From an uncultured Tropicimonas sp. (GTDB taxonomy: Bacteria > Pseudomonadota > Alphaproteobacteria > Rhodobacterales > Rhodobacteraceae): a stretch of DNA of 64,000 nucleotides. The stretch lies in NCBI GenBank assembly GCA_947497945.1, contig CANMIP010000007.1:1-64000 (forward strand). The letters run 5' to 3'. A program made the position numbers and the translations under genes. Below the pieces are notes generated by a model. That model was not told the origin of the DNA. It made no database searches and saw only the letters and a list, made by a program, of their open reading frames with translations. This document shows positions 404 to 13,256 of this stretch, piece by piece. Numbering within the stretch: position 1 is the first letter of the stretch; every line of letters begins with the position of its first letter.

Positions 404-1414
404 TCAACCCTCCTCCGCCAGCATCTGCGCCTTGATCCCAAGTTCCATCACCTTGAAGCAATGACTTTGAGGCATGGCTGTCTCGGTGCGGTTCAACACA
501 TCGTGCTTGAGCCGCCCGAAATAGGGCAACCCGGCATCGGAACAATCGATTTTCTCGTAGCGATCTCCGGTGACGAGAAACAAGTGATCGGTACCCGCCG
601 GGTTGGCAATGTCCACGTATTTCCGAAGCTCGATATACCCTTCGGTGCCCAGAATGGTCAGCCGTCCGTCGCCCCAGTTCGGCAGCGCGTCGGGCGTGTA
701 CCAGTCGACGCGGATATACCCGTGGGCCCGCTCGTTGCGCAGCACGATCTCACCGAAATCCTGCAAACCCGGCGTGTCAGGGTTGGCATAGTTGCGCGCG
801 CAGGACGTGGCGATTTCGGCATCGGTGGAGCCGGTGAAGAAGAGGAACTGGTCGATCTGGTGGCTGGCGATATCGGTGAGCACGCCGCCATATGCCTGTC
901 GGTCAAAGAACCAGTCCGGGCGCGTGGGCTTGTTGAGCCGGTGAGGCCCAAAGCCTGCGGTTTGCACCACCCTGCCGATAACACCCTCGGCCACCAACTC
1001 AGAGGCGCGCGTCACGCAGGGCACCTCGAAACGTTCGGAAAAGTCGACCGACCAGACGCGCCCCGTCCGCGCTTGCGTCTCGCGCAAGGCATCGAGTTGC
1101 TCCAGCGTCGTGCAGCCTGGCTTGTCCGCCATCACGTCCTTGCCCGCTTCCATCGCCTCGACTGCCAGCGCGGCCCGGCGCGCAGGAATGTCGGCCACGA
1201 GGATCAAGTCGATCTCCGGGTCGTTGAGGATCTCGTCGCGATCCATCCTCCGCGGTACATCCGGAAAGAGCTTGAGGAACTTCTCGGTCGGTTTGGCGTC
1301 GCCGTCGTTCCACCAGCCGACGAACTCCGCGCCAGCCTCGATCATGTTGCCGGCCATGCCGAAGATATGGAAATGCTCGATGCCGAGGGCGGCGATTTTC
1401 AGGGTGCGGGTCAT
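404..1414 (-). CDS. Gfo/Idh/MocA-family oxidoreductase (atypical N-terminus)
   Basis: A 336-residue protein starting MTRTLKIAALGIEHFHIFG. The longer open frame upstream is rejected because this ATG has a GGAG ribosome site and overlaps the TGA of the preceding gene by four bases, implying translational coupling. The family uses NAD(P) to oxidise or reduce sugars, inositols and related hydroxyl compounds. ADKPG near residue 96 replaces the usual EKP motif, and the His/Asp pair in SHQIDQ (about 185-188) fits the catalytic region. The classical GxGxxG dinucleotide loop is not seen at the N-terminus, so cofactor binding may differ. It is the last gene of the minus-strand catabolic cluster; the substrate is unknown. 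Confidence 0.8.
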   Translation of the reverse strand: MTRTLKIAALGIEHFHIFGMAGNMIEAGAEFVGWWNDGDAKPTEKFLKLFPDVPRRMDRDEILNDPEIDLILVADIPARRAALAVEAMEAGKDVMADKPGCTTLEQLDALRETQARTGRVWSVDFSERFEVPCVTRASELVAEGVIGRVVQTAGFGPHRLNKPTRPDWFFDRQAYGGVLTDIASHQIDQFLFFTGSTDAEIATSCARNYANPDTPGLQDFGEIVLRNERAHGYIRVDWYTPDALPNWGDGRLTILGTEGYIELRKYVDIANPAGTDHLFLVTGDRYEKIDCSDAGLPYFGRLKHDVLNRTETAMPQSHCFKVMELGIKAQMLAEEG

Positions 1415-2460
1415 GACTGCTCCAGGTCCGAAAGGAGGATTGCGCGTTCTTGTTCCGATGACAGTGTAAGCGCCTCGATCAGGCGATGCACCGTCATGGC
1501 GGCGCGACCGGAGGCCACGGGCGGGCGGTTGCTGTCGAGCGCGGCAGCGAAGTCCTCGATGACCCCCTGATGCCATTCATGCGTGAACGCCATCGGGTCA
1601 GCACCGCCACCGGTTCCACCGGCTTCGCCTAGGGTTTCCTGGCGCCCGTCCTGCCAGTCGAGTTGCAACTGCCCGGATTTCAGAACAGCAGAGCCTTTGG
1701 TGCCATGCAGCACAATGCTCTCCGCCCCTCCTGGATAGCTCGCCGTCGATGCCACAAACGAGCCCACCGCACCATTTGCGAAATCGAGCCCGGCAGTCAC
1801 GAAATTTTCCGACTCCATCCTGTGCGACCGCGTCGTTCGGGCCATCGCCTGGACCTTGGTCACCGGGCCTGCCAGCAAAAGAGCAAGGTCCAACGTGTGG
1901 ATTGCCTGGCTGATCATCACCCCGCCGCCGTCGCGCGAATAGCTTCCGCGACCCGGCTCATCGTAATAGCCCTGCGCTCGCCACCAGGGCACCGCGATTT
2001 CGACCAGCGCTAGGTCCCCGAGCGCGCCCTGTTCCACGAGATCGAGCAACATGCGAGAGCTTTCCCGCACCCGGTGCTGCAGCACGATTCCCAATGGCAC
2101 GCCGGCCTCTTCGCAACAGCGCACGATGGTCTCGGCGGCACCGGCTGTTCGCTCCACTGGCTTTTCCATCAGCACGGGCAGACCTGCGCTCGCCAACGCC
2201 TCGATGATCGGCAAGCGGGCATTGGGCGGGGTGCAGAGATCGATGAAATCGACCTGTGTGTCCGCGATCACGTCTTCAAGGTGCTCAAAAACCCTTGGCG
2301 CAGGCTGCCCGTGCGTTTCCACGAAACGCGTCACAAAGCCCTCGGAGTCATCGACGCTTGCCGACAGGACACCATAGAGCGTCACCACATCAGAAGCAGC
2401 AATCGCCGCCGCGTGGGTTCCGGCCACCATGCCGACCCCGATCAGAACAACCTTTTTCAT
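1411..2460 (-). CDS. Gfo/Idh/MocA-family oxidoreductase
   Basis: A 349-residue NAD(P)-dependent oxidoreductase. The start MKKVVLIGVGMVAGTHAAAI gives the N-terminal Rossmann fold and is preceded by a GAGAGGGA ribosome site. EKP lies near residues 99-101, and the His/Asp pair of IHTLD (about 188-191) matches the family active site. It overlaps the next oxidoreductase by four bases, so the two are probably made together and may act in sequence or as partners. A 320-bp gap separates it from the rest of the cluster upstream, so it may have its own promoter. Sugar or cyclitol dehydrogenase is the best general call; the exact substrate cannot be read. Confidence 0.85.
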   Translation of the reverse strand: MKKVVLIGVGMVAGTHAAAIAASDVVTLYGVLSASVDDSEGFVTRFVETHGQPAPRVFEHLEDVIADTQVDFIDLCTPPNARLPIIEALASAGLPVLMEKPVERTAGAAETIVRCCEEAGVPLGIVLQHRVRESSRMLLDLVEQGALGDLALVEIAVPWWRAQGYYDEPGRGSYSRDGGGVMISQAIHTLDLALLLAGPVTKVQAMARTTRSHRMESENFVTAGLDFANGAVGSFVASTASYPGGAESIVLHGTKGSAVLKSGQLQLDWQDGRQETLGEAGGTGGGADPMAFTHEWHQGVIEDFAAALDSNRPPVASGRAAMTVHRLIEALTLSSEQERAILLSDLEQS

Positions 2461-2780
2461 CGTTCCCTCTCGCTTATTTGCGTCCCGTTTTCGAGTCCAA
2501 GTCTCCATCGTCGCGAAGGGCAACATAGCGGAGACAAGACAGTGTCCGACCTCGTGTTTGCGGACCGTCCAGGAACCGCGCTTTCGATGGCGCGCGCGAC
2601 ATGGGCGATGAAACGGGCCATGTTGTGCGGCGTCCGTCAACGTATTCGCAGCCGCCGTTCCGACCTTCGTCAAAACGGGGCTCAGTCTGCCATCGACAGC
2701 TGGACGTCAACCACACGAGCGCACCGCCAGGTAGTGAGCGGGACCGTGTCGTGCCAGAACGGAGGCTTTCGGACGTCCGC
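2461..2780. other. Intergenic gap inside the catabolic cluster
   Basis: This 320-bp stretch separates the isomerase from the two last oxidoreductases. Short frames in it do not resemble any family I recognise. It could hold a promoter for the downstream pair or be the scar of a deleted gene. No clear hairpin or palindrome was seen. Confidence 0.4.
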
Positions 2781-3602
2781 TCAACAGCTTGTTCGTCCCC
2801 GTTCGACAATTGTGCGCAACACGTCGTCAGGGTCCCTCTTCCACCAGTTTCCGGCCGAGAATATCTCGACCTCGTTCAACCCGGTGAACCCGGCCGCTTC
2901 CACCTCGGCCCTCAGGCCGGGAATATCGGCAACGCCGTCTCCCATCATGCCCCGGTCCTCAAGGATGTCCTGCGTTGGAACAAGCCAGTCGCAGATGTGG
3001 AAGCCCAGAAGGCGCTCCTTGCCCGCGCGACGGATTTGTTCTCGGATCTCGGGGTCCCACCAGATGTGATAGACATCCAGAGCTACGCCGATCCCCTCTC
3101 CCAGACGGTCACAGATATCCAGCGCCTGACCGGTCGTGTTCACGCAAGCCCGGTCGCCGGCATACATCGGGTGCAGCGGCTCGATCGCCACCGGCATCCC
3201 GGCGCTGCGCGCGTATTCCAGCGTCATCACCAGCCCGTCTTCGATCATGCTGCGCGCCCCGTCGATGTCCCTGGAGCCGGGCGGCAGGCCGCCCACAACC
3301 ATCACAAGGCATTCCGCGCCGATCCCCGTAGCTTCATCCACCGCGCGAAGATTGTCGTCCAGAACGACCTGGGTCAGTTTTCCTTCGCCGGTGTACCAGC
3401 CCCCACGACAGAGGCCCGAGACCCGCAGGCCCGCGTCGCGAATAGCGCGCGCTGCAGGCTCCACCCCCATCTCCTGAAGCTTGTCCCGCCAGGGGCCAAT
3501 GCCGCCGAACCCGTGACGGGCGCAGCCCTCGATGGCCTCGGCCAGCGACCACTGCATCTTGATCGTGGCGGTGTTGAGCGAAATGCGATCCGGTGTCAGC
3601 AT
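2781..3602 (-). CDS. Sugar phosphate isomerase/epimerase (xylose isomerase-like TIM barrel)
   Basis: A 273-residue TIM-barrel protein of the AP-endonuclease-2/xylose-isomerase fold. The start MLTPDRISLN lies one base after the TGA of the DUF993 gene. Probable metal-binding residues are seen in order: Glu in AIEPLHP (about 141), Asp and His in ALDVYHIW (about 176 and 179), His in GFHICDW (about 202) and Glu in NEVEIFS (about 246). Such enzymes isomerise, epimerise or dehydrate keto sugars and inosose-like intermediates, usually working with Gfo/Idh/MocA dehydrogenases as here. The tight spacing places it in one operon with the DUF993 gene. Confidence 0.8.
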   Translation of the reverse strand: MLTPDRISLNTATIKMQWSLAEAIEGCARHGFGGIGPWRDKLQEMGVEPAARAIRDAGLRVSGLCRGGWYTGEGKLTQVVLDDNLRAVDEATGIGAECLVMVVGGLPPGSRDIDGARSMIEDGLVMTLEYARSAGMPVAIEPLHPMYAGDRACVNTTGQALDICDRLGEGIGVALDVYHIWWDPEIREQIRRAGKERLLGFHICDWLVPTQDILEDRGMMGDGVADIPGLRAEVEAAGFTGLNEVEIFSAGNWWKRDPDDVLRTIVERGRTSC

Positions 3603-3603
3603 G

Positions 3604-4746
3604 TCAGACCTCCACCCCACGCGCCGCGAATACCGGACGCGCACGCGCTGCCACCCGTTCGGGGTCTGTGAACGATCCGCATGCATTGGCCATGCGAATG
3701 ATATCTGCCAGATGAAGCGTCGAGCGTGCGCTCTCTTGCCCGCCGATCATGGTGAAGTGATCCTGATGGCCGCACAAGTAGGCCATGAAGACCACACCGG
3801 TCTTGTAGAACCGGGTCGGCGCCTTGAAGATATGTCGAGAGAGCGGAACCGATGGCGCGAAAGTGGCGTGATAGCCCTTCAGGTCCTTTTTCCCCAGTTG
3901 CCCGAGCGCCCGGGCCGCGACAGCCGCGATGGGGTCGAAGATGCCGAGAAGGGCATGGGAATAACCCTCGTCGTCGCCCGCGATCAGGTCCGGATAGTTG
4001 AAGTCGTCGCCCGTATACATGCGTACGCCCTCCGGCAAGCGGCGGCGCATGGCGATCTCCTTCTCCGCGGACAGCAGAGAGACCTTGATGCCGTCCACCT
4101 TGGCAGCATTGGCCCGGATAACCTCAAGCGCGGTGTCCATCGCCACCACGTGATCCTCGGCGCCCCAATACCCAGCCAACGCGGGGTCGAACATCTCACC
4201 CAGCCAGTGCAGGATCGCCGGTTGCTCGAGCCCGCCCAACACGCGCTCGTAGACGCGCGCGTAATCCTCCGGACCTTTCGCCGCCTGAACCAACGCACGC
4301 GAGGCCATGAGGATGACGCGGGAGCCCGCCGCCTCCACAGCCTCGCATTGCGTTTCGTAGGCTGCGATGACCTGGTCCAGTGTCACATCCGGGCCGGGGG
4401 CGAGATGGTCGGTTCCCGCGCCAGAGGCGATCAGGTGCCCACCGGCTTTTGCCAGGGCGGTCGAGCGCCGGATCAGCTCCAACGAAGTCGGCCAGTCCAT
4501 CCCCATACCGCGTTGCGCGGTGTCCATCGCCTCGGCGACACCGAAGCCCAACGCCCAGAGGTGCTCGCGGAAGGCCAGCGTGCGATCCCAGTCCACGGCG
4601 CAATCCAGCCAAGGATCGTTGTCCGCCATCGGGTTGGCCACCACATGCGAAGCGGCATAGGCCGTGCGCGTCCAGCCTGTCGCCGAGGTCGGCGCGGGGC
4701 CTGCAACAAGGGTGACTGCGCCACCCGGGAGGTTCAGCTCAGTCAT
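3604..4746 (-). CDS. DUF993 dihydrodipicolinate synthase-like protein
   Basis: A 380-residue protein that I recognise as DUF993, distantly related to the class I aldolases DapA and NanA. DGIKVSLL (Lys about 221) sits where the Schiff-base lysine of this superfamily would be. Members are found beside sugar oxidoreductases, but I know of no firm biochemical function. Here it lies four bases after a Gfo/Idh/MocA gene and one base before a sugar isomerase, which suggests carbon-carbon cleavage of an oxidised sugar or cyclitol. It is full length with no lesions. The family call is solid; the reaction is inference. Confidence 0.75.
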   Translation of the reverse strand: MTELNLPGGAVTLVAGPAPTSATGWTRTAYAASHVVANPMADNDPWLDCAVDWDRTLAFREHLWALGFGVAEAMDTAQRGMGMDWPTSLELIRRSTALAKAGGHLIASGAGTDHLAPGPDVTLDQVIAAYETQCEAVEAAGSRVILMASRALVQAAKGPEDYARVYERVLGGLEQPAILHWLGEMFDPALAGYWGAEDHVVAMDTALEVIRANAAKVDGIKVSLLSAEKEIAMRRRLPEGVRMYTGDDFNYPDLIAGDDEGYSHALLGIFDPIAAVAARALGQLGKKDLKGYHATFAPSVPLSRHIFKAPTRFYKTGVVFMAYLCGHQDHFTMIGGQESARSTLHLADIIRMANACGSFTDPERVAARARPVFAARGVEV

Positions 4747-4749
4747 CGA

Positions 4750-5901
4750 TCAGATCTCCAGATCCGCAAGGTCAATCCAGCGCCGCTCGCGCCAGCTCTG
4801 ATAGCCGGCCTCGGCCAACTGCACCCCCTTGGCGCCTTCGGCGAGGGAGTAGCTCCAGGGCGCATCCTCGGCCACGTGGCGCAAGAACTGCTCCCATTGC
4901 ACCTTGAACCCATTGTCGAATACCGTGTTGTCCGGCACGTCTTCCCAACCGTCGAAGAAGTCCAGCGCCTGTGGGACGTCGGGGTTCCACACCGGCTTGG
5001 GCGTGTTTACGCGGGCTTGGCTGCGGCAGGAATGCAGTCCCGCCACGGCCGAGCCATGCGTGCCGTCAACATGGAAGGTCACCAGATCGTCGCGACGCAC
5101 ACGCGTGCACCAGCTGGAGTTGATCTGTGCCACGATGTCCCCTTCCAGGAGGAAGGTCGCATAAGCGGCGTCATCGGCATCCGCGGGATATTCCGCGCCC
5201 TGTTCGTCCCAGCGGGTGGGGATATGGGTTGCGCCCATGCAGGAAACCGACTTCACCGGCGCAACCACGTTGTCGAGCACGTAGCGCCAGTGGCACAGCA
5301 TGTCGGAAATGATCCCGCCGCCATCGGCCGCGCGGTAGTTCCAGGACGGGCGTTGTGCCGGCATCCAGTCCCCTTCGAACACCCAATAGCCGAACTCGCC
5401 GCGCACCGAGAGAATGCGGCCGAAGAAGCCGCTGTCACGTAGCCGTTTGAGCTTCAGCAGGCCCGGCAGGTCGAGCTTGTCGTGTACGATGCCGTTTTTG
5501 ACCCCTCTTTCGCGGGCGTAACGGGCGATTTCGACCGCTTCGTCCAGCCCTTCTGAGATCGGTTTTTCGCAATAGACATGCTTGCCGGCGTCAATCGCGC
5601 TCCGCAGCAGCGCCGGGCGCAGCTTTGTCGAAGCCGCGTCGAAGAACAGCGTGTCATCTGGGTTGGTCAGCGCCGCGTCCAGATCGGTGGTCCAACGCTC
5701 GACCCCATGGGCCGCAGCCAGCGCCTCGATCTTGTCGGCATTGCGGCCAACCAGGATCGGGTCCGGAATCAGCCGTGTGCCGTCGGAGAGCAGCACTCCG
5801 CCCTCATCGCGGATCGCCAGAACCGAACGGATAAGATGCTGGTTCATTCCCATGCGCCCCGTGACGCCGTGCATGACGATTCCGATACGTTCCTGTTTCA
5901 T
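4750..5901 (-). CDS. Gfo/Idh/MocA-family oxidoreductase
   Basis: A 383-residue oxidoreductase. The N-terminus MKQERIGIVMHGVTGRMGMN carries a Rossmann loop of DapB-like wording, CEKPIS sits near residue 111, and GGGIISDMLCHW fits the active-site helix. It opens the enzyme part of the cluster, 74 bp after tetR, and is followed after three bases by the DUF993 gene. It probably performs the first oxidation of the imported substrate, but that order is inferred from position only. An alternative is a dehydrogenase acting on a later keto intermediate. Confidence 0.85.
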   Translation of the reverse strand: MKQERIGIVMHGVTGRMGMNQHLIRSVLAIRDEGGVLLSDGTRLIPDPILVGRNADKIEALAAAHGVERWTTDLDAALTNPDDTLFFDAASTKLRPALLRSAIDAGKHVYCEKPISEGLDEAVEIARYARERGVKNGIVHDKLDLPGLLKLKRLRDSGFFGRILSVRGEFGYWVFEGDWMPAQRPSWNYRAADGGGIISDMLCHWRYVLDNVVAPVKSVSCMGATHIPTRWDEQGAEYPADADDAAYATFLLEGDIVAQINSSWCTRVRRDDLVTFHVDGTHGSAVAGLHSCRSQARVNTPKPVWNPDVPQALDFFDGWEDVPDNTVFDNGFKVQWEQFLRHVAEDAPWSYSLAEGAKGVQLAEAGYQSWRERRWIDLADLEI

Positions 5902-5975
5902 GAGTATTGTCCTTTCGTCATTCAGTGATCCGGCCCTGCATGTGCATGGCCAGAAAAGTGTGGCGCGGTGACCAC

Positions 5976-6632
5976 TCAGTCAGTGCCGCAGGTTTCCGGT
6001 GTCGCCCGCAGGTAGCAAAGGATCATCTTGCTGGCCTCTTCGGCCCGGCGCTTCAGCCAGGTGTCGTCTATCGGAACATTGAAGACGACGCGCAGCGTGT
6101 ACTTGTTGGACACCGGGAAGAAGCAGAGCGAGGCAATAGTCAGGTAGAGTTCGGTGGGATCGACCCCCGGTTGGAAAGCGCCCTCGGCCACGCCGCGTTC
6201 GAGGATGGAACTGATCTGATGGATCAGCGGCGACTGGATGTCGTTGAGATGATCGATTTCGCGCACCGTCACACCCTTGCGCAGGTTCTCGGTGTTGAGC
6301 ATCGAGGTGAACCAGGGCTTGGAAATGAAGTGATCCATGGTGAAGTGCACCAACTCGCGGATCGCGTCCTCTGGCGTCATGTGGTCGGTGTCGATGGCAC
6401 GTTCGCCCTTGCGGATCTGCAGGTAGCTTTCCTTGAGCGCCGCCTTGTAGAGGTCTTCCTTGTCGCCGAAGTAGCTGTAGATCATCGGCTTGGAGACCCC
6501 GGCCGACTCGGCGATCCTGTCAACTCGCGCGCCACCATGCCCTTGTGTGGCAAACTCGTTCAGGGCAGCGTCTAGGATACGCCGCTGGGTGGCGGCAGCA
6601 TCGCGACTGGCAGGTTTTGGTTTGTCGTTCAT
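5976..6632 (-). CDS. TetR-family transcriptional regulator of the TctABC cluster
   Basis: A 218-residue TetR/AcrR-type repressor. The N-terminal helix-turn-helix is plain in AESAGVSKPMIYSYFGDKED (roughly residues 42-61), followed by a helical ligand-binding domain. Its start codon overlaps the tctA stop by four bases, so it is translated with the transporter genes rather than from a divergent promoter. A probable operator lies upstream of tctC at 9766-9794, which would make the operon autoregulated. The inducer is presumably the transported compound or an early product of it. Confidence 0.88.
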   Translation of the reverse strand: MNDKPKPASRDAAATQRRILDAALNEFATQGHGGARVDRIAESAGVSKPMIYSYFGDKEDLYKAALKESYLQIRKGERAIDTDHMTPEDAIRELVHFTMDHFISKPWFTSMLNTENLRKGVTVREIDHLNDIQSPLIHQISSILERGVAEGAFQPGVDPTELYLTIASLCFFPVSNKYTLRVVFNVPIDDTWLKRRAEEASKMILCYLRATPETCGTD

Positions 6633-8155
6633 GACTTGCTCTTCCCCTTGAGGCGCGACGTAAGACGAGCGAAGCTGCGGCGAACCGGTGCCAGACCCAT
6701 GGCGATGCTCACCACGATCACCACCACGAAGAACAGCGAGATCGGGCGGCTGAAGAAGGGCTCCAGCGAGCCGTCCGAGAGCGTCAGACCGCGGCGCAGA
6801 CTCTTGTCCAACAGGGATCCGAGGATGATCCCGAGCACCAGCGGCGCCATCGGGTACTTCATCTGCCGAAGCACGAAGCCGATCAGCCCGAACGCCACCA
6901 TCACCCCGATGTCGAAGGTGCGTTGAGTCAACGCGTAGGGGCCGATGACGCAGAGAGTGAAGACCACTGGCATCAGGATTTCGCGTGGGATCTTCAGCAC
7001 CAGAATGAACAGCCGTGTCAACGAGAGGCCGTAGATCGCGATGGCGATGGTGGCAAAAACCAGCATGGCGGCGATCGAATAGATGAAGGTTGGCTGTTCG
7101 ATCATGATCATCGGGCCGGGCCGGATGCCATGAATGAAGAGCGCGGCGATCAGCACGGCAGCAGGAGCGGAGCCGGGCACAGCCAGTGTGAGCGCCGGGA
7201 TCAGCGAGCCGGGCACCACGGCTGAGTTTCCGGTTTCGGCCGCTGTCAGCCCTTCGCGCGATCCCTTGCCGAACTCCTCCCGCTCAGGGCTGGTGCGTTT
7301 GGCCGCCGCATAGGAGGCCCACGCGCCGATATCTTCGCCCACACCGGGGATGATTCCCACCAGCGTGCCGATGATGCCGGAGCGGATGATGGTGTATTTG
7401 TAGCGGATCAGGTCTGCAAGGCGCGGCAGCACGCGGTCGTCGGTGCTGTTCTTTTCCACCAGTTCTGGCTTGTTGCGCCACATTACCGTTAACACCTCAG
7501 CAAAGCCGAACGCACCCACCATCGCCGGTATCAGAGCAATGCCACCGTTCATCTGGTGAAAGCCAAGGTTGAAGCGGACATGGGCGTGGATGCCTTCGGA
7601 GCCGATCATGGCGACCATCAGGCCAAGCAGCCCGGCGATATAGCCCTTGAGCGGGGCCACACCACCGGTCAACTGGCCAGAGATGACAATGCCGAAGACG
7701 GCAAGCCAGAAGAACTCGAAGGACCCGAAATCGAGCGCGATCTCGGCCAGTGGCGGGGCGAGCACGACAAGCATGACAATACCCACCAGCGTGCCCAGCG
7801 CCGACCCAGCGGTGGCCAGTGCCATTGCGTAGCCGGCTTGCCCCTTTTGTGCCAAAGGGTAGCCGTCGAGCGAGGTCGCCGCCGAGGCGGGGGTCCCGGG
7901 AATGTTGAGCAGGATGGCGCTGCGCGAGCCGCCATAGATCGCGCCGACATACATGCAGATCAGCACAAGGATCGCGGTGTCGCGCTCCATCGTGTAGGTC
8001 AGCGTGGTCAGCAGCGCGACCCCCATGGTGGCGGTCAAGCCGGGAAGGCTGCCGACGAAAATGCCAAGCAGGGTCGCCCAGGCTACATGAAAGACCGACA
8101 TCGGGGTGGCAAGGGCGACAATCGCAGCGGCAAAGCCGGCAAGTCCTTCCATCAT
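6629..8155 (-). CDS. Tripartite tricarboxylate transporter, large permease (TctA)
   Basis: A 508-residue membrane protein with the length and glycine/proline-rich motifs of TctA: GSLPGLTATMG near residue 30, IYGGSRSAILLNIPGTPASA, and a second repeat with GIIPGVGEDIGAW. About a dozen hydrophobic helices are visible. It is the large channel subunit of a secondary, binding-protein-dependent carboxylate importer. The start at 8155 follows a GAGG site and overlaps the tctB stop; a second Met follows immediately. Its 3' end overlaps tetR by four bases. Confidence 0.92.
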   Translation of the reverse strand: MMEGLAGFAAAIVALATPMSVFHVAWATLLGIFVGSLPGLTATMGVALLTTLTYTMERDTAILVLICMYVGAIYGGSRSAILLNIPGTPASAATSLDGYPLAQKGQAGYAMALATAGSALGTLVGIVMLVVLAPPLAEIALDFGSFEFFWLAVFGIVISGQLTGGVAPLKGYIAGLLGLMVAMIGSEGIHAHVRFNLGFHQMNGGIALIPAMVGAFGFAEVLTVMWRNKPELVEKNSTDDRVLPRLADLIRYKYTIIRSGIIGTLVGIIPGVGEDIGAWASYAAAKRTSPEREEFGKGSREGLTAAETGNSAVVPGSLIPALTLAVPGSAPAAVLIAALFIHGIRPGPMIMIEQPTFIYSIAAMLVFATIAIAIYGLSLTRLFILVLKIPREILMPVVFTLCVIGPYALTQRTFDIGVMVAFGLIGFVLRQMKYPMAPLVLGIILGSLLDKSLRRGLTLSDGSLEPFFSRPISLFFVVVIVVSIAMGLAPVRRSFARLTSRLKGKSKS

Positions 8156-8637
8156 GGCAACCTCACCAGGAAACCGTAGCGGAAGAGCGCCGAGATGGCA
8201 CCGGCCGTGACGGCGCCGAACAGCATCACGAAGAGCGCGGTTTTCATGCGTCCCGACCCGATAGGCGCGGCCGGGACGAGGAACCAGCCGGCGAACCCGG
8301 CGATATAGATGGCGGCCCCCGCCGCAAACGGGATCCGACCGACAAGCACCAACGCAAACACGCAACTCCAGATGGCGGTAAAGGTGAAGTCCTGTAGCGA
8401 GCCGCTGTCGTCGTCTTCTGTGTCACGCGGGGTGGCAGCGGCCGAACGTGCCAGCAGTATCGCGCAGAGCATCAATGCGGCACCAAGGATCATGGGAACA
8501 AGACCGGGGATCGACGCAGGATGGATCTGCCGGATCTCCAACCGGTCCATCACATAGCCACCCCAGGCCATTGCCGCGCCAAGCGCGAAGAATACAGCCG
8601 CCGTGGCACGGTCGGCTGTCGCGGAATTGAAACGCAT
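8152..8637 (-). CDS. Tripartite tricarboxylate transporter, small permease (TctB)
   Basis: A 161-residue protein with four hydrophobic segments and the usual TctB length. It is the small membrane subunit that pairs with TctA. It lies between tctC and tctA in the standard order and overlaps tctA by four bases. TctB sequences are poorly conserved, so the call rests on length, topology and gene order as much as on motifs. Confidence 0.85.
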   Translation of the reverse strand: MRFNSATADRATAAVFFALGAAMAWGGYVMDRLEIRQIHPASIPGLVPMILGAALMLCAILLARSAAATPRDTEDDDSGSLQDFTFTAIWSCVFALVLVGRIPFAAGAAIYIAGFAGWFLVPAAPIGSGRMKTALFVMLFGAVTAGAISALFRYGFLVRLP

Positions 8638-8724
8638 GGATGTGAGCCTTCTACACCCTCGGCCGTGGCCGATGCAGGCAGATGTGCGGGGCCGGAGCCC
8701 CGCACGGTTTGCGAAAGCGGGACC

Positions 8725-9747
8725 TTATTCGGTCGGGCAGGTGATACCGATCTCGGACGGGTCAAGCACCGCTTCGCCTCGGGACACGCGGGCGCAGGCC
8801 TCTGCGATGACCACGGGCATGGCACGATCCATGGCTGCCTGGCCGAAGCTCGGATCAAACACCGCACCGCGCTCGGAGGCATATGCCATCATCGCCTCGG
8901 ACGTCATGACCTTCTCTTCCCAGACCTTGCCGACTGTCTCATAGACCTCGTCAGGGGCGCCAACCGGGATGAACACGCCGAAGTAATCGGGTGCGACCGG
9001 CATGTCGGGCAGCCATTGGGTGATCGGTGGGATCGCATCGAGCCCTTCCACTTCGAGCGGCTTGTCGGACAGGACCGCAAGACTGCGCAGTTTGCCAGCC
9101 TTGATCATCTCTGTCTGCTCCGTGGCCAACTGCGTGGTCGCATCGACTTCGCCCGATGCCGCAGCGAGAACCGCGGGGTTGCCGCCGTCATAGGTGACCA
9201 TGCGCGCCGACAATTCGTCGCCGCCCGCAGCCTCCTTGATCGCTGCCATCGCCATGCCGCCGGACGAGTTCACACCGGCGGTGCCGATCTTCACATCCCC
9301 GGTCTTCATGGCCTCAAGAAACGCGCCAAAGTCCGTGTAGTCCTTGTCGGCGTTGACGCTGACCACCGGCACGTTCGCGACGTGAAGCATCACGTAGTAG
9401 TCGTTGATCGACGTGCCTTCGATCATGCCGGTCACCGAATAGGTGGCGTTGTTGGCAATCGCGTTGGCGGTCCAGGTGTAGCCGTCGCGCGGCGCATCCA
9501 GAGCGGCCTTGGTGCCGATGGACCCGGACGCACCGGGCTGGTTGACGATCACGATCGGCGTGCCGAGCGCTTCTTCAAGAATCGGGGCCACGACGCGCGT
9601 GACCTGATCGGTCGATCCACCGGCTGACCATGGCACGATGATGTTGATGGGCTTGTCCGGCTTCCATTCGGCCATTGCCGGTGTGCTGAAAACGGCCGTA
9701 ACGGCAAGCGCCATGGCAGTCAGGCTGGTTCCTCTCCGAGCTAGCAT
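8725..9747 (-). CDS. Tripartite tricarboxylate transporter, periplasmic binding protein (TctC/Bug)
   Basis: A 340-residue periplasmic protein with an N-terminal signal peptide and a clear cleavage site after STPAMA. The mature start KPDKPINIIVPWSAGGSTDQ is the classic TctC/Bug opening, and NQPGASGSIG follows. Bug proteins grip carboxylates or other small polar ligands between two lobes, and ligand type cannot be predicted from sequence. It is the first gene of the cluster, behind the putative TetR operator. The following oxidoreductases suggest a sugar-acid or cyclitol-like ligand. Confidence 0.93.
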   Translation of the reverse strand: MLARRGTSLTAMALAVTAVFSTPAMAEWKPDKPINIIVPWSAGGSTDQVTRVVAPILEEALGTPIVIVNQPGASGSIGTKAALDAPRDGYTWTANAIANNATYSVTGMIEGTSINDYYVMLHVANVPVVSVNADKDYTDFGAFLEAMKTGDVKIGTAGVNSSGGMAMAAIKEAAGGDELSARMVTYDGGNPAVLAAASGEVDATTQLATEQTEMIKAGKLRSLAVLSDKPLEVEGLDAIPPITQWLPDMPVAPDYFGVFIPVGAPDEVYETVGKVWEEKVMTSEAMMAYASERGAVFDPSFGQAAMDRAMPVVIAEACARVSRGEAVLDPSEIGITCPTE

Positions 9748-9765
9748 CTGTCTACTCCCAGTTTG

Positions 9766-9794
9766 CTACTATTTGGTAACTTACCAAGTGGTAG
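9766..9794 (-). promoter_or_regulatory. Putative TetR operator overlapping the tctC promoter
   Basis: A 29-bp imperfect palindrome centred on 9780. Its core TTGGTAACTTACCAA is a perfect 7+1+7 repeat, and the extended arms match at 12 of 14 positions. On the minus strand a -35-like TTGACC (9812-9817) lies 17 bases before a weak -10-like CTACCA, so the palindrome overlaps the -10 region and the start of transcription. It lies 19 bases upstream of the tctC ATG. The nearby tetR gene is the obvious ligand. Confidence 0.7.
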
Positions 9795-9974
9795 CTTTCA
9801 GTTCAGGAATTGGTCAAGCCTTTTTTGTTAGCACCCCACATAGCGGCCAGTCCGCCGCGCGGCCGGCCGTCGGGAACGCCAGGAATGGGATGTGGTGATG
9901 TCAGGGGAACTTGGTTTGCGACGGGGCAGGGGGCTGAGTAGCGTCCTCGGATGACGAAACGCGGCCCGTTCTAG

Positions 9975-10813
9975 GGCCTGTGGACAATCAGGATTCCCAA
10001 GCGCTGTGATTTCTGATTCAGACTTCCCAAATGGAGGTTTGAATGAACGAGCAGCGTTTTGTGGTTTCGGATCAAGTGTGGCAGCGGCTTGAGGGGCACA
10101 TACCGGGGAAGACTGGCGATGCCGGAGCCACGGCAAGGGACAATCGCCTGTTTCTGGAAGCGGTTTTCTGGAGAGTTCGGACCGGTTCACCATGGCGCGA
10201 CCTGCCGTCTGCCTTTGGCAACTGGAACAGCCAGTTCCGGCGTTTCCGGCTTTGGGCGGAAGCCGGTGTATTCGAGAGCCTTTTCAACGCGATGCACGAT
10301 GACCCCGACTTCGAGTGCGCACTTATCGACGGCACCATCGTTTCGGTTCACCAGAAGGCATCTGGCGCAAAAGGGGGACTCAGAATCAGGCCATCGGGCG
10401 CTCGCGCAGCGGGCGGACGACCAAGATCGTTGCCCTGGTTGACGCACTCGGAAATCTGGTTCGGTTCATGCTACTGCCCGGTCAGGCACACGACATGAAA
10501 GGCGTTTCGCCACTGATCCGAGGCATCTCATTCGGCGCTCTTCTGGCGGACAAGGCGTTCGACGCGAATTGGCTGCTCGAAGAACTGGATGCGCGCGGCG
10601 CAACTGCGGTGGTCCCGCCAAAAACAAATCGAAGGCACCAGCGCGACTATGACGCCGATGCCTACACATGGCGGCATCTGGTCGAGAACTACTTCGCCAA
10701 GATCAAGAAATTCAGGGGAATAGCCACACGTTACGACCAAACAGATTGCAGCTACGCTGCCAACTGGAACCTCGTCGCAGCCCCCATCGCTTCAAGGTGA
10801 TTGTCCACAGGCC
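9975..10813 (+). mobile_element. IS5-family (IS427-like) insertion sequence, 839 bp
   Basis: Perfect 16-bp inverted repeats GGCCTGTGGACAATCA lie at 9975-9990 and, inverted, at 10798-10813. CTAG flanks both ends (9971-9974 and 10814-10817), which fits the target duplication common in this group; a shorter TA duplication cannot be excluded. The element is complete, with one two-frame transposase inside, and is inserted in an IS6-type transposase gene. The transposase stop codon lies inside the right repeat. Confidence 0.9.
10043..10800 (+). CDS. IS5-family (IS427 group) transposase made by -1 frameshifting
   Basis: OrfA starts MNEQRFVVSDQVWQRLEGHI at 10043 and holds the first catalytic Asp in ALIDGTIV. 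OrfB continues in the -1 frame with Asp in LADKAFDAN and Glu in LVENYFAKIKKFRGI, completing the DDE set, and stops at 10800. The frames meet at an AAAAGGGGG run (10369-10377); slipping there yields SGAKGGTQNQAIGRS, the normal junction for this group. The two-frame layout is therefore probably programmed, not damage. The element may still be active. Confidence 0.85.
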
Positions 10814-11750
10814 CTAGTACTTCAAGACATCGCCGGAAGTCATCCGTCTGGCTGTGATGCTCTACGTCCATTTCCCACTGTCGCTTAGAAATATGGAGAT
10901 CCTGCTGAATGAGCGCGGTATCGATGTCAGCCACCAGTCCGTTTGGTTCTGGCGGAACAGGTTTGGCCCGATGTTCGCCTCCGAAATCCGCAAAAGGCGC
11001 GCTGACTGCCTGCATTCTGGGCCGCAATGGCGGTGGTACCTGGATGAAGTGTTCGTGGAGATCAACGGCGAGCGGAATTACCTCTGGCGGGCCGTCGATC
11101 ATGAGGGCGAGGTTCTTGAAAGCTTCGTCACAAAGGCGCGGGACAAGAAAGCTACATTGAAATTATTGAAGAAAACGATGCGGCGGTATGACCGGCCCGG
11201 AACCATCGTGACTGACTTGCTTCGGTCCTACGGCGCCGCACTGAGGGAAATCGGCGCTACGGGCCTACAGGAAACGGGCCGTTGGCTGAACAATCGGGCG
11301 GAGAATTCGCATCCGCCATTCCTACGACGAGAGCGAGCGATGCAGCGGTTCCGTCGGACACGCAGTTTGCAGATATTCGCATCCGCCGACGCCTCGGTTT
11401 TCAACCATTTCGATTCGGAGCGCAGTCTCTCCTCCAGAGTCAGTTTCAAGAAGAACCGCATCGCTGCTCTCGCCAAGTGGCGCGGTCTTTGCGCGGCATA
11501 ACGGACAGCCACCTTGTCCTTGCTGAGACCGGTTCGAATTTGTCTGACACCACCATGCGGACCCTTGTGGAGAACGCGGCGAATGTCCGTTCGCCGCCCT
11601 TCCTTCCAAATGCTGCACCCGCATTGGTCGGATTTTCGCGCTCGCGGCGAATGTCCGGAAGGTCGGCAGAGCACCAGTTCGTCCAGGTTGCAGCATTCGG
11701 AACAATGGGCTCACGTTCGCGAACCTTCGCTGCTCTCGGACCGAATGTCA

Positions 11751-12001: not shown

Positions 12002-13088
12002 CTAGAACCCTTCCAGATAGCCTGAGCGCTCCAACTTATCCCAGACCCGCTGCTGAGCCTCCACGAGTTGCTCCTTCAGCAAACCGTGGTCGTATGTAGA
12101 GTTCGAGGTGCGAGGTCCCGCCCAGCCTCCGAGGTCGTTAACGGTCGCCTCAGCTATCCCTGCCCGACGAGCTGCAGTGCGCCATGTATGACGGGTGGAG
12201 TGGAGGACCAAGCGGCCATCGCTGTCGGCTCCCAATGCTTTCCGTCGGAGGTCGATGAACCAGCGGGTGACGGCTCCACACTTCCCTGTGGAAGGTTTGA
12301 TGGGCCATTCTGGGAAAACTCTGCCTGTTTCGCTGTGGGTCGCCAGACGGGCGCTTAGGAGATCTCTTGCAGGGCTGATGAGGGGAACGAACCGAGAGGC
12401 ATTCTCCGTCTTGCCATCCCTGATGTGAAATCCAGACCCATCGGGTTCTGCATCCACGGATCGAAGGAGAACAAGTTCGTTGATGCGGACGCCAGTGGCG
12501 AGCGACAGACGGAAGGCATCGCCGCCTCTCGTGCCGCGCTGGGTGGCCGCGAGGATTTTGGCGGTCTCGATTGCGGAGAAGTCACTGCGTTCCGGCTTGT
12601 CGCGGGAACGTTTCGAGCGGGGGACGGATTTGTCGAAGGTCCAAGGGTTCTTCTCATATCTGGGGGAGGTGAGGCGACGGTCGGACACTGCCCAGTCCCA
12701 CATTGGGCGTAGCATAGTGACGTATTTGTCAGCTGTGCGGGCAGACATCCCCTTCTTGGTCTGCTTGGACGTGACCGAGGGGAGATACTCATACCGGAAA
12801 CGACGCGCCAGTTCGGGCGACACATCCTCCATGCAAGCCGTCTCTTCCGTGTCTTCTAGGAAAGAACGGAGGTGCTTTAGGGCTATCTCGAGTTCCTTTA
12901 CCGACGCGGGAGAGAGCGGCTTGAAGTTGAAGGCGTTGCCGGGGCTAAGGTGTTCCCAAGCCCCTCGTGATTGCCTTGCGGAGCGGCTTTCCGTCCCACG
13001 GGTTCGGTAATCCGACGAGATTTAACGGTGTAACCATGCGGAAGACCCAGCTTTTTCCGGGTCCACGAGGCTGTTTAAGGTATCGCAT
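12002..13088 (-). pseudogene. Tyrosine-recombinase integrase, decayed (internal deletion and frameshift)
   Basis: The N-terminal part starts MRYLKQPRGPGKSWVFRMVT at 13088 and breaks at a TAG (12945-12947) just after RGLGTP. The remainder resumes in another frame from about 12935, reading SPGNAFNFKPLSPASVKELE and on to the stop at 12002. The catalytic domain keeps Arg (GVRINEL), the HxxR pair (HSTRHTW) and Tyr (STYDHGL). The stretch between the halves is much shorter than in intact relatives, so part of the arm-binding region is missing. It lies beside the 3' end of tRNA-Cys, the usual place for a site-specific island integrase. A truncated catalytic protein from 12832 could still be made. Confidence 0.85.
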
Positions 13089-13182
13089 ATCGTTCTCGTT
13101 CGCCTCCTTGTTGTACAAAGTGGACAACGCGGGCTTGGACAACGTTTCGACTTCCTTAGGAATATCAGCAGTTTATGGTAAT

Positions 13183-13256
13183 TGGAGGCGAGTACCGGAA
13201 TCGAACCGGTGTACACGGATTTGCAATCCGCTGCGTCACCACTCCGCCAACTCGCC
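13183..13256 (-). tRNA. tRNA-Cys (GCA), CCA encoded
   Basis: The reverse strand folds as a complete 74-nt tRNA. The 7-bp acceptor stem GGCGAGT/ACTCGCC is followed by a T discriminator and an encoded CCA (13183-13185). The T arm has CCGGTTCGATTCCGG, and the anticodon loop TTGCAAA gives anticodon GCA (13222-13224). Its 3' end points at the decayed integrase, so it is the probable attachment site of the island to the left. The other island border is not visible in this window. Confidence 0.97.

Follow-up and report, generated by a model that had tools for sequence, protein, structure and literature searches.

Here we describe a nine-gene operon on the minus strand of a 64,000-nucleotide stretch of DNA from an uncultured Tropicimonas sp. 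(contig CANMIP010000007.1, positions 1 to 64,000; this whole stretch is termed the window). The operon occupies positions 404-9747 and, as judged from its gene content, probably imports and breaks down a sugar-like compound. At its center are three genes that encode a protein of the DUF993 family (PF06187), a Gfo/Idh/MocA oxidoreductase termed GfoC and a PF01261 TIM-barrel isomerase termed ISO, and this core recurs in most of the loci in which DUF993 was found. The structural model of DUF993 has the fold of the class I aldolases of the dihydrodipicolinate synthase/N-acetylneuraminate lyase (DHDPS/NAL) superfamily. The best explanation for this gene set, to which we give a probability of about one half, is an inducible operon that oxidizes, isomerizes and cleaves a polyhydroxylated substrate, such as a sugar, a cyclitol or a sugar acid. 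This is a widespread catabolic operon of a familiar style with a function that is unassigned in the open literature searched; it opens an orphan aldolase-like family to testing and overturns nothing.

Results

An earlier note on this DNA had proposed to look for the linkage of DUF993 with Gfo-type enzymes and an isomerase in other genomes, and had reckoned with the case that DUF993 is never linked to these enzymes elsewhere. DUF993 was searched in an even sample of 289 genomes of the class and in 14 control genomes; it is present in 25 of the former, the window's own genome included, and in none of the controls. For comparison of the loci, 25 neighborhoods from the 24 other survey genomes were combined with the best 80 relatives from named genomes, of which more exist, and these 80 weight the sample towards close relatives. 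Together with the window this gave 106 stretches (the window and L027-L131) that were reduced to 103, as L063 is a duplicate of L039 and L126 one of L030, and L102 was dropped because none of its frames exceeded the codon-score limit, though it encodes GfoC, DUF993 and ISO. The linkage is widely found: of the 103 distinct loci, 91 have both GfoC and ISO on the strand of DUF993 and no more than 6 kb away. Counted singly, ISO is present in 97 loci, GfoC in 93, a TetR relative in 77, an enolase-type gene in 55, a second isomerase termed ISO2 in 21 and a weak DHDPS-family protein in 19. The corresponding numbers for the 25 evenly drawn loci are 22 for ISO, 18 for GfoC, 13 for TetR and 10 for the enolase-type gene. 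Since the core is kept in 91 of 103 loci, and the evenly drawn sample has ISO at 22 and GfoC at 18 of its 25 loci, the co-occurrence is far above chance. DUF993 and ISO form a largely fixed pair, around which dehydrogenases and importers are interchangeable. The family also reaches into the Beta- and Gammaproteobacteria and the Actinomycetota. By eye, two loci (L034, L037) have DUF993 beside haem-biosynthesis-like genes, with neither GfoC nor ISO, which counts against a fixed cassette.

DUF993 (3604-4746) matches its Pfam family with 570.7 bits, against a gathering cut-off of 24. Its AlphaFold model has a mean pLDDT of 87.4 and finds as top match the Sinorhizobium meliloti structure 4dnh, named 'hypothetical protein SMc04132', followed by many DHDPS-type enzymes. 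Among the Foldseek matches listed, the 49 of DHDPS type have E-values of about 1e-10 to 1e-8 and TM-scores by query of 0.58-0.65, and the model is thus of the DHDPS-type TIM-barrel fold. The description as aldolase-like in the earlier note therefore stands at the level of the fold. A profile alignment with five DHDPS proteins encoded in the window's own genome places Lys221 on the Schiff-base lysine with an E-value of 0.0016, at a low hhalign probability (15.9%). Lys221 is invariant across 100 aligned DUF993 sequences, and so are H180, W181, D247, D248 and R304 (residue counts here and below were made after removal of short or identical sequences, leaving 100 DUF993, 88 ISO and 93 GfoC sequences). 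A tyrosine is catalytic in DHDPS; on the strand that carries it, DUF993 reads HWLG in the profile alignment, and this motif includes the invariant H180 and W181. Schiff-base chemistry of DUF993 is likely on the grounds of fold and lysine position, and an aldol cleavage would be in line with both.

ISO (2781-3602) shares 47-71% identity with 14 aligned orthologues. The closest solved proteins are 3ju2 (SMc04130, uncharacterized), 3qc0 ('sugar isomerase') and 7vpf ('xylose isomerase'), and the next match in a profile search is IolI (1i60, E 2e-16). IolI is an inosose isomerase. E141, D176, H179, H202, R217 and E246 of ISO fall on identical residues of IolI, and E141, D176, H202, R217 and E246 are invariant in the 88 aligned sequences. 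These positions comprise the metal ligands and the arginine of IolI, and ISO has them in spite of a remote relation that is seen at the level of profiles. The earlier note had called this protein an isomerase, and the retained key residues agree with it. The Agrobacterium glycoside beta-eliminase AtOGE binds its metal through a histidine of strand beta5, His132, at the position where ISO has Glu141 and IolI likewise a glutamate (AtOGE residues as printed in PMC10628242). A glutamate rather than an AtOGE-type histidine favors isomerization over elimination, in a comparison that runs via IolI, with neither AtOGE nor LgdB1 directly aligned.

GfoC (4750-5901) has 3oqb, named 'Oxidoreductase', as closest solved relative. 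K113, D200 and H204, which we take to be catalytic, are conserved in all 93 aligned sequences. None of the three Gfo proteins of the operon reaches the cut-off of an NCBIfam model. The other two, GfoA (404-1414; closest solved relative 3u3x, 'Oxidoreductase') and GfoB (1411-2460), are rare additions to the core, and most DUF993 loci have GfoC and neither of them. The GfoA group occurs in 8 of the 103 loci, the window included, while the single close relative of GfoB among these loci is found in Roseibium (L098, 56% identity), with further ones in the genus-mates L145 and L148. The counterparts in L148 are 90% (GfoA) and 74% (GfoB) identical to the window's proteins.

In order of transcription the operon reads tctC, tctB, tctA, tetR, gfoC, DUF993, ISO, gfoB and gfoA. 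All nine frames are open and each protein matches its named Pfam family; the regulator (5976-6632) has TetR_N and TetR_C_29 domains. The genes overlap shortly at gfoA/gfoB (1411-1414, 4 bp), tetR/tctA (6629-6632) and tctA/tctB (8152-8155), so that the nine same-strand genes with several overlaps described before are confirmed. From tctB through ISO, neighbors overlap or are at most about 75 bp apart, whereas ISO and gfoB are separated by a gap of about 320 bp. The starts of gfoB, gfoA, ISO and tctA were picked by codon score, and by this score the start of GfoB is most likely nearer to 2460 than to 2673. A start at about 2460 leaves the 320 bp gap to ISO and makes gfoB-gfoA a looser sub-module.

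TctA, the large permease (6629-8155; 450.8 bits, cut-off 28.9), TctB, the small permease (8152-8637; 38.4 bits, cut-off 29.1), and the TctC/Bug-type periplasmic binding protein (8725-9747; 69.7 bits, cut-off 27) each exceed their Pfam cut-offs and together make up a tripartite tricarboxylate transporter. However, TctABC is one of several importers that accompany the core and therefore says little about the ligand. TctA is found in 24 of the 103 loci and in 3 of the 25 evenly drawn ones; elsewhere, an NMT1-type ATP-binding cassette (ABC) importer or a sugar-type (SBP_bac_1/8) ABC importer takes its place, the latter in the rhizobial relatives. In individual plasmid loci the transporter found nearby is of the TRAP or the MFS type or a further sugar ABC importer. 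This answers the earlier call for a list of co-occurring transporters, and given the variety of classes beside the core, the idea of predicting the substrate from the transporter was rejected. On a FastTree tree of the 100 DUF993 sequences, the three transporter classes require at least 13 changes over the 65 loci that were scored, with 33 'other' and 2 'mixed' loci left out; 200 shuffles gave a mean of 25.4 and a minimum of 21. The transporter class is inherited within clades, yet swapped often. Either the substrate has several ways of uptake, or substrates differ by clade.

Upstream of tctC, at a distance of 17 bp, lies a 15+15-nt palindrome with 87% complementarity (9765-9795, containing a 29-bp site at 9766-9794 that is 18 bp from tctC) that could possibly be the operator of the TetR protein. 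Two of three core-bearing genus-mates have a near-identical 29-bp site, upstream of tctC in L146 and upstream of tetR in L148, and the third, L145, holds a shorter palindrome at similar distance. In the whole genome the 29-bp pattern occurs, at up to 3 mismatches, at 9766-9794 alone, and the reversed control is found nowhere. As the pattern was built from the sites in the window, L146 and L148, its uniqueness alone counts as independent evidence. A search for sigma-70 promoters was uninformative, with none found and 1.8 in shuffles.

The DUF993-ISO pair is also found in other surroundings. An SDR or a GMC oxidoreductase can replace GfoC, and genes for acyl-CoA dehydrogenase, CoA-transferase, enoyl-CoA hydratase, electron transfer flavoprotein (ETF) and glycerate kinase can be linked (e.g., Roseateles L157). 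A second architecture is apparent on S. meliloti pSymA (L154, from a translated search) and on the Roseateles plasmid (L157): it combines a GMC oxidoreductase, an acyl-CoA dehydrogenase, a CoA-transferase and an enoyl-CoA hydratase with two aldo/keto reductases and a glycerate kinase, and in L157 the annotation includes ETF genes as well. Of 122 loci, 8 have a linked glycerate kinase, namely 6 of 12 hand-picked plasmid loci and 2 (L044, L048) of the other 110. Four of these eight, on plasmids of Paracoccus yeei, P. pantotrophus, Qingshengfaniella and Erwinia, carry the GfoC core, and on both Paracoccus plasmids a succinate-semialdehyde-type dehydrogenase lies beside it. A glycerate-kinase homologue (45% identity) is encoded on another contig of the window's genome. 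The linked kinase hints at three-carbon products.

The enolase-type gene mentioned above encodes a 467-aa protein (L080, 7314-8717, and relatives). The L080 copy gave no hit to Pfam or NCBIfam models at E 0.001, and NCBI names one relative 'enolase C-terminal domain-like protein'. A search that ran without a positive control found no enolase-type match in the window's genome, and ISO2 has no close match there, with a weak one of 28% as the best. Completing the pathway through such genes elsewhere in the genome was considered and discarded on these results. Three loci (L028, L040, L130) are expanded and have, in addition to the core, a PhyH-type dioxygenase, a DHDPS-family protein, a GNAT-type enzyme and an epimerase-type protein. 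In three others (L029, L064, L068) the core adjoins, by eye, urease-accessory-like and urea-type ABC transporter-like genes.

The operon likely belongs to a putative tRNA-borne island. On its right side are transposase-like frames (10043-11501), by eye probably of two different insertion sequence types, that lie between the operon and a 276-aa tyrosine integrase with a phage integrase domain beside tRNA-Cys (stretch 12002-13256). The tRNA-Cys gene occupies 13183-13256, and synteny with the DUF993-free genus-mate G291 breaks at 13181, at the 3' end of the tRNA. In 3 of 8 genus-mates (G290, G295, G296), the contig that carries the full gene also has partial copies, about 48 bp long, of this tRNA end, and this suggests that the site may be an integration hotspot. 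The island postulated in the earlier note hence gains the integrase and the synteny break at tRNA-Cys, but not the flanking repeat: the 48-base end of the tRNA has no second copy in the window's assembly at up to 3 mismatches, and the contig begins at base 1 of the window. The further suggestion that the trait may be transferable is backed by relatives on plasmids in other genera; DUF993 is present on 147 of 72,556 plasmid records, of which 63 are typed as conjugative and 11 as mobilizable. Among the 8 other genomes of the window's genus, 3 have DUF993, with differing neighbors.

Discussion

We favor an oxidation, isomerization and cleavage sequence as explanation for the operon. In such a scheme TetR would repress the operon from the palindrome in front of tctC, binding of the substrate or of a metabolite would relieve this repression, and TctABC would bring in the substrate. 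GfoC would then turn a hydroxyl into a ketone with NAD(P), and the metal-dependent, IolI-like ISO would isomerize or epimerize the keto compound. DUF993 would form a Schiff base via Lys221 and catalyze a retro-aldol cleavage of the keto compound, and small, possibly three-carbon, products would enter central metabolism. GfoA and GfoB may act as accessory dehydrogenases or reductases in the variant of the window. A route of this kind had been suggested before; the fold of DUF993, the residues shared by ISO and IolI and the conserved K113, D200 and H204 of GfoC make it the best-supported reading, in which we infer the cleavage and the order of steps. A more far-reaching version holds that DUF993 is a new family of class I (Schiff-base) aldolases and that, together with the IolI-like isomerase, it splits a keto-cyclitol or a keto sugar acid into three-carbon units, which proceed via glycerate, in a widespread and often plasmid-borne pathway. 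As a whole this version is rather unlikely.

Several observations weigh against the sequence of oxidation, isomerization and cleavage. The profile match of DUF993 to DHDPS is weak, DUF993 has no match to the Pfam DHDPS family (PF00701), its sole hit at E 0.001 being PF06187, and the DHDPS fold is also used by dehydratases. The DUF993-ISO pair beside GMC, acyl-CoA dehydrogenase and CoA-transferase genes is a poor fit to a simple sugar route. The glycerate-kinase links are few and mainly on chosen plasmids, and the two Paracoccus copies are nearly identical. Enolase-type genes and ISO2, linked to DUF993 in many loci, were not found as close matches here, and the route therefore differs or is incomplete. 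L148 has the enzymes, but no tct genes in the 20 kb seen. Finally, L145, which has tct genes, does not match the 29-bp pattern, and on the plus strand the palindrome itself is scored as a terminator-like hairpin.

Among the alternatives, the one that survives best, although we consider it improbable, is that DUF993 is a DHDPS-fold dehydratase, hydratase or decarboxylase and that the operon oxidizes and dehydrates a sugar acid, with no retro-aldol cleavage. Dehydratases of 2-keto-3-deoxy-sugar acids have the DHDPS fold, and L-2-keto-3-deoxyarabonate dehydratase (7c0c) is found among the fold matches of the model, at rank 35. Enolase-type genes are typical of acid-sugar dehydration, and their linkage in 55 of 103 loci is in line with such a route; however, no enolase-type match was obtained in the window's genome by the search described above. 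The HWLG motif at the strand of the catalytic tyrosine also argues against a dehydratase of this kind, and it makes the analogy to DHDPS loose either way.

Somewhat less probable is a division into two units, an operon of TctABC, TetR, GfoC, DUF993 and ISO and a separate GfoB-GfoA pair with a substrate of its own. The gap between ISO and gfoB would allow for this, and so would the arrangement in relatives: the GfoB/GfoA relatives are divergent from the tct genes in L145, absent in L146 and, in Roseibium L098, located on the other strand and upstream of tct. In L148, in contrast, the gfoB-gfoA relatives have the same order and strand and a similar spacing.

We regard a 3-keto-glycoside route as doubtful. 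Here, a Gfo enzyme would oxidize C3 of levoglucosan or of a C- or O-glycoside, the PF01261 protein would break the glycosidic bond by beta-elimination, another Gfo enzyme would reduce the keto sugar, and DUF993 would take a by-product. According to PMC10066097, LgdA and LgdC are Gfo proteins and LgdB1 and LgdB2 are PF01261 proteins (for the pathway see PMC7676230), and these families match the three Gfo proteins and the one PF01261 protein of the window; the sugar-type ABC importer of the rhizobial relatives would also fit. Yet the three Gfo proteins score 53.3, 58.6 and 61.9 bits with the NCBIfam model for levoglucosan dehydrogenase (LgdA), far from its cut-off of 650, the beta5 position of ISO has, by alignment with IolI, a glutamate instead of the histidine printed for AtOGE, and GfoC occurs without GfoA and GfoB in most loci. 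A cyclitol route with GfoC as inositol-type dehydrogenase, ISO as inosose isomerase and DUF993 acting on an inosose, possibly by ring opening, is equally doubtful. In its favor, IolI follows directly after three unassigned or merely named close relatives in the profile search with ISO, and the Gfo proteins do match the IolG model (TIGR04380); against it, their scores of 51.1, 84.5 and 55 bits are below the cut-off of 355.

The oxidation, isomerization and cleavage reading can be approached directly, because the largely fixed DUF993-isomerase pair makes the function testable with few purified enzymes. Solved structures already exist for relatives of DUF993, GfoC, ISO and GfoA, under names such as 'uncharacterized protein', 'oxidoreductase' and 'sugar isomerase', and genes that are now labelled 'dihydrodipicolinate synthase family protein' or DUF993 could become a pathway. 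A published pathway for this gene set, which the earlier note had considered as a possible objection, did not turn up: full-text searches of an open-licence library found no paper that contains the word DUF993 and none that assigns the gene set, with subscription journals and fitness databases, which may hold an assignment, outside this scope.

The Otn pathways for L-threonate and related acid sugars follow the same logic of oxidation, isomerization by a PF01261 protein and cleavage, and they employ a class II aldolase where the window has DUF993; a DUF1537 kinase, as in these pathways, was not noticed, though no search for DUF1537 was made. Inositol catabolism by IolG and IolI shares the Gfo family and the aligned residues of ISO, but the canonical inositol pathway was set aside on the IolG score; genes of the iolB/C/D/E type were not noticed by eye among the neighbors shown, in which no targeted search was made. 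The levoglucosan pathway (PMC7676230, PMC10066097) likewise combines Gfo and PF01261 enzymes with an importer. The window differs from it by the lack of an LgdA at the NCBIfam cut-off, by glutamate instead of histidine at beta5 (in comparison to AtOGE) and by the additional DUF993, and a full levoglucosan-type pathway was set aside on the LgdA score and, less firmly, on the ligand residue. With the DHDPS/NAL class I aldolases DUF993 has the fold and, going by the low-probability profile alignment, the lysine position in common, but these enzymes have about 290-300 residues compared to 380 in DUF993, which falls outside the Pfam DHDPS family and has HWLG at the tyrosine strand. The closest counterpart is the uncharacterized S. 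meliloti region SMc04130-SMc04139, a probable orthologous cluster in which SMc04130 (3ju2) is the relative of ISO and SMc04132 (4dnh) that of DUF993. SMc04132, SMc04133, SMc04135, SMc04138 and SMc04139 are included in the gene table of a PhaR study, and in this table SMc04132 is uncharacterized, SMc04133, SMc04138 and SMc04139 are oxidoreductases and SMc04135 is a component of an amino acid or peptide ABC transporter (PMC12542648). Beyond SMc04130 and SMc04132, the match of tags to genes is presumptive. Its likely layout is that of Ensifer L112, with a sugar-type ABC importer instead of TctABC and with enolase-type and further Gfo genes in addition.

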